DNA of 64,000 nt from positions 62,001 to 126,000 of the forward strand of contig JAGAPX010000018.1 of assembly GCA_017623055.1 (NCBI GenBank). Direction: 5' to 3'. The notes under the pieces were generated by a model, which saw nothing but the letters and a program-made list of their open reading frames with translations, was not told the DNA's origin and ran no database searches. Origin of the DNA: Phascolarctobacterium sp. GTDB lineage: Bacteria; Bacillota; Negativicutes; Acidaminococcales; Acidaminococcaceae. The position numbers were made by a program, and so were the translations under genes. Position 1 is the first letter of the stretch, and every line of letters begins with the position of its first letter. Shown here in pieces: positions 9,848 to 57,372 of the stretch.

Positions 9848-9882
9848 AAGGCGTTCCCAAATCGGGAACGCCTTAGTTTTTT
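9848..9882. terminator. Bidirectional rho-independent terminator
   Basis: A perfect 11-bp stem AAGGCGTTCCC / GGGAACGCCTT (9848-9858 and 9864-9874) with T runs on both sides. It serves the phosphoesterase gene and the convergent pilin cluster. Confidence 0.9.
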
Positions 9883-11574: not shown

Positions 11575-12031
11575 TTACAACAACCCTTCCTGTTACAGGT
11601 TGCACTGCTACTACATAGCCATATTCACTTTTCTCTGCGTGCCGTAAAATCCAAGTGCCACTAGCTGTTGGACTTCCGTTGACACCAAACTGAACGTTAA
11701 AACGTTTCGGCCAGCTTAGTACCACGTTCCAACCATAATCAGCAAAACGAACCTGTTCCACCTTCTTTCCTCGCACATAAAAATCGTAGCCACTGCTTAG
11801 AGAGCGCATATATCGTTGCTCCCCTTCTCCAAACATGGACTGCTGCTGAAGCTTACGCATATCTGCCGCCAAAAAGTTTGCCGCTGCCCGCACCTCAAGC
11901 TTAGCATAAATTTTAGTATACCCTACGCTTTGAGGTAAAAGGCTTGCCACTACCAACCCAAGTAACACAATAACTGCCAAAGCTTCAATTAAAAGGAAAC
12001 CACCTTGTTTATTCGGATGCCTTGCTGCCAC
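11561..12031 (-). CDS. Minor pseudopilin (GspH/ComGD-like)
   Basis: A 156-residue protein with a type IV prepilin leader, KQGG then FLLIEALAVIVLLGLVVASLL, with Glu at +5. A soluble beta-rich C-terminal domain follows, with KRFNVQFGVNGSPTASGTW near residue 110, as in GspH/ComGD-like minor pilins. The start appears to be GTG at 12031, as no ATG in frame gives a leader, and it lies inside the end of the preceding major pilin gene. No strong ribosome site is visible, so translational coupling is likely. Confidence 0.72.
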   Translation of the reverse strand: MAARHPNKQGGFLLIEALAVIVLLGLVVASLLPQSVGYTKIYAKLEVRAAANFLAADMRKLQQQSMFGEGEQRYMRSLSSGYDFYVRGKKVEQVRFADYGWNVVLSWPKRFNVQFGVNGSPTASGTWILRHAEKSEYGYVVAVQPVTGRVVVSESE

Positions 12032-12371
12032 CGGAGGTAATCACTTCCCCTGCAGCATTCTTACCCGTTAAAGTATAGGTAGTATCGCTGGCAGTATAAA
12101 CGAGAGCTTCGCCTTTAGCATCCTTAAACTCGCTATTGCCGGCAATGTATTCCGTTTGCAAAGCTTCCAAATTTGTAGGCACGCTACCATTTTCCATTTT
12201 GTAAAGCTGAATAGCTTGATCAACTGCTGCCAAATCATTACGTAGTTTGGCGTTCTTCACCTTAGTGTTAGCACCATCTAAAGACGGCATAATCATTGTA
12301 ACTAGCACGCCCAGAAGTGCGGCAACCGCTACAACCTCAATCAAAGTAAAACCTGCTTGTTTGTTTTTCAT
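12009..12371 (-). CDS. Major pseudopilin (GspG/ComGC-like)
   Basis: A 120-residue prepilin with the classical start MKNKQAG then FTLIEVVAVAALLGVLVTMI, where cleavage is before Phe and Glu is at +5. The mature part contains DLAAVDQAIQLYKMENGSVPTNLEAL, the helix-plus-proline region typical of the GspG/ComGC major pseudopilins. The ATG is preceded by AGGAGG. It follows the inner-membrane platform gene by 11 bases. In type II secretion and competence systems such proteins build a short periplasmic or cell-wall-spanning fibre. Confidence 0.85.
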   Translation of the reverse strand: MKNKQAGFTLIEVVAVAALLGVLVTMIMPSLDGANTKVKNAKLRNDLAAVDQAIQLYKMENGSVPTNLEALQTEYIAGNSEFKDAKGEALVYTASDTTYTLTGKNAAGEVITSGGSKASE

Positions 12372-12382
12372 AAAAATCCTCC

Positions 12383-13594
12383 TTAATTATATTCTGGTAA
12401 AGCTGCAAATAAATCAAACAAAGGACCAACCACGGAGCAGACCACCGCCGCAGTCACCAAAGCTGCTACCAAAAGCAGTAAGGGTGCCAAAAGCTCACGC
12501 ACTTTTTCTAAACGGTCGCGTAAATCCTGTTCCAAAATTTGCGCAGCTTCATTCAGCAAATTTGGTAAATAGCCTGTTTCTGCACCAATGCAAATCAGCT
12601 CCGCAGTTAAAGGAGAAAATATTTCAGTTACAGTTCCCACTGCCGTACTAATAGCTTCGCCACGTCGCAGGGCAGCATTAAAAATTTTTAACTGGCGTAC
12701 ACGCTCCTTGTGGCTGATGGTAGCAGTTGCCACCTCCACCGCATCCGTAATATTAATGCCCTTATCCAAAAGCAAGCCTAATAATTTGCAAAAACGTATT
12801 TCTAAAACCATGGCGTGTAAATTTCGTACTAAAGGTAAGCTAAGACAAAGGAGTACCAATTGTTGTCGACTATGGTAAATACAAAGGAAGATTACCAATA
12901 ATACTAAACATACTTCGAAACCATAAGCGCTTAGAAAATTATTAACGCTAACTGCAAATTGTAAAAGCTCGTTGGGTTTGGCACCTAAACTACTGTACAC
13001 GCTTGCCAGCATCGGCAGCACGTACGCCAGAAAAAAGCACAACACGCTTAAAGAAGCAATCAGTAGAAACAAAGGATACAAGGTTGCCTTGTAAAGAAAT
13101 TCTTTCAGCTCTGACTGTTTGGCATAATAGCTTGCAATTTCTAAAAACACGTTGTCCAGTTCCCCACTGCGTTCCCCCGCCGCTACTAAAGTTATTGCTA
13201 AATTGGAAAAAGCCTTTCCGCATTGCTGCATGGCACTTGCCAATGACGTACCCTTTTGCAAATTACCACTAAGCTCTGCACAAACCTTCCCAATCACAAC
13301 GTCAGTCCGTTGTCGCAACAAGTCCAAACCTTGTAGCAAGGGGACACCGCTATTTAAAATTACTGCCAACTGTTTGAAAAAGACTGCACTCTGCTTGTCA
13401 GAAAGCTTCAACCTCTTACTACTTAGCTTTGTATGCCAATGTTCCCAAAAATTTCTTTCTTGCAGTTTTAATTCAACAACAAAACCATAACTGTTTTTTA
13501 TTAATGCAGCAGCTTCCCTTTTTGAAGAGGCACGTACCTTACCTCGTAAAAGCTTGCCATTTTGACTGCGAGCCTTCCAAGAAAACTCCTGCAT
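12383..13594 (-). CDS. Type II secretion / type IV pilus inner-membrane platform protein (GspF/PilC/ComGB)
   Basis: A 403-residue T2SSF family protein. Two repeated helical domains are seen: the first has LSDKQSAVFFKQLAVILNSGVPLLQGLDLL near residue 65 and the second EIRFCKLLGLLLDKGINITDAV. Three membrane helices lie around residues 180-200, 230-255 and 375-395. It anchors the pilus assembly machine and contacts the cytoplasmic ATPase, but no ATPase gene lies nearby. The ATG at 13594 has a GGGAGGAG site; an upstream in-frame ATG at 13711 would place the parS terminator arm inside the gene and is rejected. Confidence 0.88.
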   Translation of the reverse strand: MQEFSWKARSQNGKLLRGKVRASSKREAAALIKNSYGFVVELKLQERNFWEHWHTKLSSKRLKLSDKQSAVFFKQLAVILNSGVPLLQGLDLLRQRTDVVIGKVCAELSGNLQKGTSLASAMQQCGKAFSNLAITLVAAGERSGELDNVFLEIASYYAKQSELKEFLYKATLYPLFLLIASLSVLCFFLAYVLPMLASVYSSLGAKPNELLQFAVSVNNFLSAYGFEVCLVLLVIFLCIYHSRQQLVLLCLSLPLVRNLHAMVLEIRFCKLLGLLLDKGINITDAVEVATATISHKERVRQLKIFNAALRRGEAISTAVGTVTEIFSPLTAELICIGAETGYLPNLLNEAAQILEQDLRDRLEKVRELLAPLLLLVAALVTAAVVCSVVGPLFDLFAALPEYN

Positions 13595-13709: not shown

Positions 13710-13749
13710 AAAAAACAGCAATTGTTTCACGTGAAACAATTGCTGTTTT
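13710..13749 (-). terminator. Terminator of the histidine operon, built on a perfect palindrome
   Basis: Two 19-base arms (13712-13730 and 13731-13749) are perfect inverted copies. In the minus direction they are followed by six T residues (13710-13715), 15 bases beyond the hisIE stop codon. The form is that of an intrinsic terminator, but with no unpaired loop in the fully extended form. Its centre is a parS site. Confidence 0.7.
13723..13738. other. parS site (ParB/Spo0J binding)
   Basis: TGTTTCACGTGAAACA matches the 16-base chromosomal parS consensus of Firmicutes exactly. ParB loads here to organise and segregate the origin region, and such sites cluster near oriC. This agrees with the dnaX-recR and rnmV-rsmA neighbourhoods in the window. 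A parB gene is not in the window. Confidence 0.88.
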
Positions 13750-13764
13750 CTGCTTATAACGATT

Positions 13765-14424
13765 TTAATATTTAGAATTGTTTTCTTTGGCGCGACGTCC
13801 TCCAAGTTCATTAAGCAGTTCCGTCGGAGTGATATTGTGGTACGCCAAAAGCACTAAGCAATGATACCACAGGTCGGACATTTCATAGAGCACTTCGTCT
13901 TTAGCGTGGTTCTTAGAAGCGATGATGGTTTCTGCTGCTTCCTCGCCAACCTTTTTAAGAATTTTGTCTTGACCGGAAGTAAACAGATACTTGGTGTAAG
14001 ATTTTTCTCCACCATTAACACGTTTCTCTTGGATAACACGGTACAGCTCGCTAAGTACACCGGGAATGCCGTCCATTTCGGGAACGGGCAGGTTGTCACG
14101 CTTCCAGAGCAAATTATGGAAGCAGGAATATTCGCCAGTGTGGCAAGCCACGCCAGTTTGTTCAACTTGTACCAGCAGGCTGTCGCCATCGCAATCGTAG
14201 CTGATATCTACAACCTTTTGCAAATTTCCGCTGGTTGCGCCTTTATTCCACAATTCTTGACGGCTACGACTCCAGAACCAGGTGTAACCAGTTTCAATGG
14301 TACGTGCCAAAGACTCGCCATTCATATAAGCAAGCATTACTACGGCGTTGGTGCGCACGTCTTGGACAACGGCAGGCACCAAGCCTTTTTCGTCAAATTT
14401 AATTTTAGAGAAATCAATCTGCAT
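13765..14424 (-). CDS. hisIE: Bifunctional phosphoribosyl-AMP cyclohydrolase / phosphoribosyl-ATP pyrophosphatase
   Basis: A 219-residue fusion for steps 2 and 3 of histidine synthesis. The HisI part (about residues 1-115) has [28 protein letters not shown] and the zinc-site run [21 protein letters not shown]. The HisE part (about 120-219) has KSYTKYLF and [15 protein letters not shown], ending in LGGRRAKEN. It starts by a one-base overlap with the hisF stop and is the last gene of the operon before the palindromic terminator. Confidence 0.95.
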
Positions 14425-57317: not shown

Positions 57318-57333
57318 TGTTTCACGTGAAACG
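57318..57333. other. Second parS site
   Basis: TGTTTCACGTGAAACG matches the parS consensus at 15 of 16 positions, differing only in the last, least conserved base. It lies in the 5' leader of the ttcA-like gene, 43.6 kb from the first site. Confidence 0.8.
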
Positions 57334-57372
57334 TTTTGACTTTTTGACATTTAAAGAAAAAGGGTTTATTAT

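Follow-up and report, generated by a model that had tools for sequence, protein, structure and literature searches.

A parS site within a probable intrinsic terminator at the end of the histidine operon of a Phascolarctobacterium-like genome

The junction between the his operon and the pilus-type genes

The stretch of DNA that was analysed (the window, 64,000 nucleotides) comes from G000, a 1.72-Mb Phascolarctobacterium-like MAG of a gut bacterium, assembled in 46 contigs. On its minus strand lies hisIE (13765–14424), the final gene of the his operon, which encodes PRA-CH and PRA-PH domains. The original prediction placed pilin genes downstream of this operon. Prepilins are found there, including a prepilin-like gene with an N_methyl domain (12009–12371, minus strand), but they come second, the first downstream gene being a T2SSF-family gene of the PilC/GspF type (12383–13594, minus strand). 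The listed open reading frame of the T2SSF gene begins at 13711 with TTG, and an ATG at ~13594 stands behind GGGAGGAGAG. On the side of the pilin operon away from hisIE, a terminator scan identified an ordinary terminator without parS (9848–9874, no strand assigned).

Between hisIE and the T2SSF gene lies a perfect 38-bp palindrome with 19-base arms (13712–13749), which is separated by 15 bp from the hisIE stop codon (13765–13767). Its inner 16 bases (13723–13738, no strand assigned) match the parS consensus TGTTTCACGTGAAACA at 16 of 16 positions. Read on the minus strand, the sequence beginning 15 bp beyond the stop codon is AAAACAGCAATTGTTTCACGTGAAACAATTGCTGTTTTTTGTG, in which G-C pairs stand at the stem base and CAGC...GCTG is followed by a T6 tract (A6 at 13710–13715 on the plus strand). 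The palindrome, the exact ParB consensus, the six T residues in the direction of his transcription and the distance to the stop codon were all as originally described. The interval first given, 13710–13749, is two bases longer, as it takes in the final two T of the T6 tract. Four of the six T lie within the palindrome arms, and the same four can also pair with the A-tract.

As RNA, the palindrome folded at −28.6 kcal/mol (z = −8.35), and no shuffled sequence folded equally well; parS by itself folded at merely −3.9 kcal/mol. The stem is mostly A-U. Matches to parS with up to three mismatches were expected 0.47 times per shuffled window, and the match at the his site is perfect. The hairpin was not among the sites listed by a consensus terminator scan of the window, probably because the scan extends the stem through the A/T pairs and is then left with too few T. 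Rfam scans of the his site and of related loci identified no RNA family for the hairpin, the weak matches being far under the gathering scores. Given the long, near-symmetrical A/T tracts, the putative terminator is possibly bidirectional.

The window contains a second parS-like site with one mismatch (57318–57333, plus strand), directly followed by TTTTGACTTTTTGAC. Its orthologous site is a perfect parS in two related genomes, G001 and G003.

Hairpin and parS core in related genomes

The hisIE 3' junction was common to all four genus genomes, namely G000 and three congeners that were identified by matching identities as RGIG3958 (G001), RGIG3840 (G002) and RGIG4568 (G003). The site reads CCCACAATTGTTTCACGTGAAACAATTGTGGG in G001, where it is followed by TTTTG, and CCCGTAATTGTTTCATGTGAAACAATTGCGGG in G003, where it is followed by TTTTGTG and where a change in the loop leaves parS one base off. 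In G002 it reads CAGCAATTGTTT-GCGACA-AAACAATTGCTG, followed by T7; here the parS core is gone and the stem is retained. The outer arms found in the different species were CAGCAATT/AATTGCTG, CCCACAATT/AATTGTGGG and CCCGTAATT/AATTGCGGG, always with T-rich sequence after them. They vary between species on both sides together and are still complementary, including one G-U pair, in a sample of four species that therefore offers few compensatory changes. All four versions folded, at −19.7 to −28.6 kcal/mol. The question raised beforehand, whether the outer arms are conserved along with parS in relatives, thus received a divided answer: arm pairing and the T-rich tail were kept in all four species, but the parS core was intact in only two. 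At the same junction in more distant Acidaminococcaceae there was no parS, and other hairpins or none were evident.

Joint changes of the two arms were also seen at other operon ends. The pilin operon's distal terminator, which is ordinary in G000 (GGCGTTCCC...GGGAACGCC), is a parS hairpin in G001, the only one of the compared species with an intact parS there. In G003 it reads GGGAATGTTC-GCGTG-GAACATTCCC, with parS broken and the stem re-paired, including the swap of a T-A for a C-G pair. The hairpin at the noc end has GACAGAA/TTCTGTC as arms in G000 and GTCAGAA/TTCTGAC in G002, a double swap (GAC/GTC to GTC/GAC). Since the arms change jointly at the his, pilin and noc ends, pairing appears to be what selection keeps at these sites; and since the hairpin is always kept while the parS core varies, the his site would be first an intrinsic terminator, on which parS has been overlaid. 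In G001, noc is separated from the parS hairpin by a small two-gene cassette (87 and 97 aa; L186:9948–10502), whose size and sequence start resemble those of toxin-antitoxin genes; in G000 the parS hairpin adjoins noc directly.

We give a probability of about 75% to the reading that the site is the intrinsic terminator of the his operon, with a stem-loop that holds a genuine parS, and that constraint acts here on termination, the parS core being replaceable. The transcribed palindrome would form a stem of 18–21 bp with an ACGU loop, followed by U6, and its anatomy and conserved pairing suggest that RNA polymerase would be released before the pilus-type genes. On the DNA, the inner 16 bp would serve to load ParB2, one of two ParB-type proteins of G000, as the consensus match and the specificity residues of this protein suggest; the his site is one of 19 such perfect sites, which are scattered over G000. 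The paired stem changes, the retained T-rich tail and the genus-wide conservation of parS within diverging flanks give good support to the central proposal of the original prediction, that one sequence serves as partition site and as intrinsic terminator.

A further part of that prediction fared less well, namely that ParB loaded at the his parS, or sliding from it, alters readthrough into the pilus-type genes and thereby couples segregation to expression. A parS site does lie in the gap between his and pilin genes, and there are precedents for effects on neighbouring genes: ParB lowers the expression of genes adjoining the intergenic sites parS3 and parS4 in Pseudomonas aeruginosa (PMC5521831), and in Mycobacterium, where a parS overlaps the −10 box, repression of gidB by ParB has been proposed (PMC2346475). 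However, a conserved regulatory link should retain the parS core, and at the his site G002 has lost the core and G003 carries a mutated one, with the hairpin retained in both. The scarcity of intact parS in the distal terminator of the pilin operon likewise speaks against ParB-controlled termination, which we consider unlikely.

The parS sites of the genus and their probable reader

Perfect parS sites numbered 19 in G000 and 40, 23 and 35 in the other genus genomes, compared with 0–5 in each of the other family genomes (n = 55). A reversed-pattern control in G000 gave no matches, the number of perfect matches expected per genome being near zero. In a sample of 398 phylum genomes, only G000 and the unrelated G384 (69 sites) had more than seven. 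When parS was masked in a comparison of orthologous loci, 22 of 29 parS sites of G003 had a perfect 16-mer at the corresponding locus of G001, the loci being mostly 78–98% identical. Judged by this conservation, parS elsewhere in the genus is clearly maintained. The sites of G003 occur on 17 of ~40 contigs and are thus not restricted to one origin region; in G000, the his-site parS is on contig C6 and parAB on C42. The his and par regions of G001 occur twice (contigs C14/C112 and C16/C57), and this MAG is probably a mixture of two related strains, which makes 40 an overestimate.

Two ParB-type proteins are encoded in G000. ParB1 (L016:1723–2583) follows mnmG-rsmG, which is the position of Noc, and scored 313.4 bits against the TIGR04285 cut-off of 315; ParB2 (L016:6686–7687) follows ParA. 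ParB and Noc differ in specificity at four positions, with R173 and G201 marking the parS type (PMC7383237). The alignment gave GRSR and SMG at the specificity positions of ParB2 (R173/G201-type) and the Noc-type set QKKR in ParB1. Alignment with a Bacillus subtilis Noc sequence and alignments against deposited chains agreed. With R and G at two contact positions, ParB2 is likely the reader of the parS sites. The QKKR set of ParB1 set back the alternative that the dispersed parS are sites of this Noc-like protein. The perfect NBS core ATTTCCCGGGAAAT was absent from the four genus genomes, each of which had 5–8 one-mismatch matches. The his site was also rejected as an NBS, being a parS and not a TATTTCCCGGGAAATA-type sequence.

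These numbers bear on whether the his hairpin might be a plain terminator with a loop that is parS-like by chance and that ParB does not use. The persistence of the hairpin without an intact parS in G002 and G003 would fit such a resemblance. Nevertheless, it is improbable for a perfect 16-mer with a near-zero expectation per genome, in a genus that keeps 19–40 copies at orthologous loci.

Across three congeneric genomes, arms of at least 15 bases were found at eight of 85 parS sites, corresponding to five loci. With shuffled flanks, 0.72 sites on average, and at most five in 5000 trials, had arms of this length. The five loci were the his end, the noc end or its neighbourhood, the pilin end, a convergent junction (L025:12740) and the L158/L186:5786 pair. 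One could suppose that parS lies here in an extended DNA palindrome, either a cruciform or an extended ParB-binding site, with no terminator role, since the arms are perfect past the 16-bp consensus and this additional symmetry could have a function in the DNA itself. We consider this very unlikely: 77 of the 85 sites have arms under 15, most of the extended sites adjoin a gene end and have a T-tract, and loss of parS leaves the arms in place.

A fusion of parS with a terminator, as preferred here, was also indicated outside the genus. The 398 phylum genomes were scanned for an A4-parS-T4 pattern, which misses terminators without an A-tract and thus gives a lower bound, and perfect parS hairpins were found in six Bacillota families besides that of the window. 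They lie 17 bp after parB in G149 (arm 23), 28 bp after parB in G188 (arm 18), 5 bp after rsmG in G352 (arm 15), after rsmG (arm 16) and near another gene end (arm 22) in G202, after a gene at the rsmG position in G296 (arm 14) and 18 bp after a methionine-synthase-type gene in G397 (arm 18); G384 has several, with arms of 17–22. Such parS-bearing, terminator-like hairpins often come directly after parB, rsmG or noc. Taking the five genus loci together with the genomes of six other families, the sequences indicate that the fusion arose repeatedly. Both parS and intrinsic terminators are textbook elements; we found no description of a parS built into a terminator in the open-access full-text literature.

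Many other parS sites of the genus have a partner motif. Wherever RGGGACAT occurred within 60 bp of a perfect parS (36 of 36 cases), it stood exactly 10 bp from the parS end in a single orientation. The resulting composite, parS-N10-RGGGACAT-N3-TTTA-A/T tract, is rigid, measures ~53 bp and recurs at dozens of unrelated intergenic places (L152, L156, L161–L163, L181–L211 and others; L024:2701 and L033:4806 in G000). The aligned module spans from 2 bp before parS to ~51 bp past the parS start, including the A/T tract; unrelated copies are alike over roughly this stretch only, and a subset continues in longer repeats. The recurrence of this composite at unrelated loci might suggest that a mobile parS-bearing repeat landed behind hisIE and gave rise to the his site, but this is highly improbable, as the site has neither the RGGGACAT box, whose absence led to its rejection as a composite copy, nor the TTTTGAC repeat, and its arms vary between species at a constant position. 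None of the genus sites examined at unrelated loci had the outer-arm sequence of the his site.

Two further motifs were observed near parS. The TTTTGACTTTTTGAC motif (period 8) has four matches genome-wide, all directly abutting parS or a one-mismatch parS (57318–57348 in the window; C28:12825, C36:7105 and C6:46879), with variants in L016, L159 and L186. The tail motif GTCAAAAAGTCAAAA was not assigned to the CtsR box, because its repeat period is 8 and not ~10. A convergent pair, CTCTTATAATGGG-N~20-AAAAAGGGACAT, has its members ~40–80 bp apart and lies always within ~350 bp of parS (L156:4305/4382, L167:3815/3892, L183, L203, L033:4548/4625 and L018:4627/4664); it had no Rfam match. In G384 (L217, L218), an unrelated Bacillota genome, most of the parS sites are in a different composite, parS-TAGTTATTAACCAAAT.

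Implications and comparison with known systems

The parS palindrome itself forms a hairpin, so it could be inserted into a terminator stem, or lost from it, without damage to the stem. A parS would amount to a hairpin with a four-base loop, which a few G-C pairs at the foot and a T-tract could turn into a terminator; in the other direction, loop changes could add parS to, or remove it from, a terminator whose stem contains TGTTT. A ParB clamp loaded at the end of an operon, where RNA polymerase rarely passes, would be spared encounters with the polymerase, and loading at such a place is a likely, though unproven, advantage of the fusion.

More tentatively, ParB of this genus may be a chromosome-wide factor. 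Operon boundaries could be marked by tens of conserved parS, of which many stand in the fixed composite, with its RGGGACAT box a helical turn (10 bp) from parS, and some are part of terminators. There, acting with a second protein, ParB clamps could load SMC or organise transcription along the entire chromosome rather than at the origin alone. The unrelated genome with 69 parS may have come to a comparable arrangement by way of another partner motif. The presence of the fusion in at least seven families makes it testable in common laboratory strains whether a clamp loader within a terminator alters termination, or whether the terminator shields the loader from RNA polymerase. With tens of dispersed, conserved parS sites on its chromosome, the genus is also a natural case that is relevant to why the number and clustering of parS vary (a question raised in PMC7333895).

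Compared with known systems, the his site resembles an intrinsic terminator in its stem-loop 15 bp past the last stop codon, its G-C stem base, its U6 tract and the pairing conserved in relatives, but differs in that the stem is mostly A-U and the tip is a protein-binding palindrome. The parS sites of P. aeruginosa (parS3 and parS4; PMC5521831) and of Mycobacterium gidB (PMC2346475) are likewise placed to touch the expression of neighbours; there, parS lies at the start of transcription, whereas here it lies at the end. As in the Noc/NBS system, conserved sites are dispersed over the chromosome and mnmG-rsmG is followed by the gene for a Noc-type ParB (QKKR), but the dispersed sites are parS and not NBS. 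The closest likeness in sequence is to the chromosomal parS of the ParABS system, with 16 of 16 bases of the Bacillus subtilis consensus, genes for ParA and for a ParB carrying parS-type specificity residues, and four parS in the noc-parA-parB region. The 20–23 sites near the origin of Streptomyces coelicolor and Listeria innocua are cited as the high end for such systems (PMC7333895); in this genus, 19–40 copies are spread over many contigs instead of a few being gathered near the origin.
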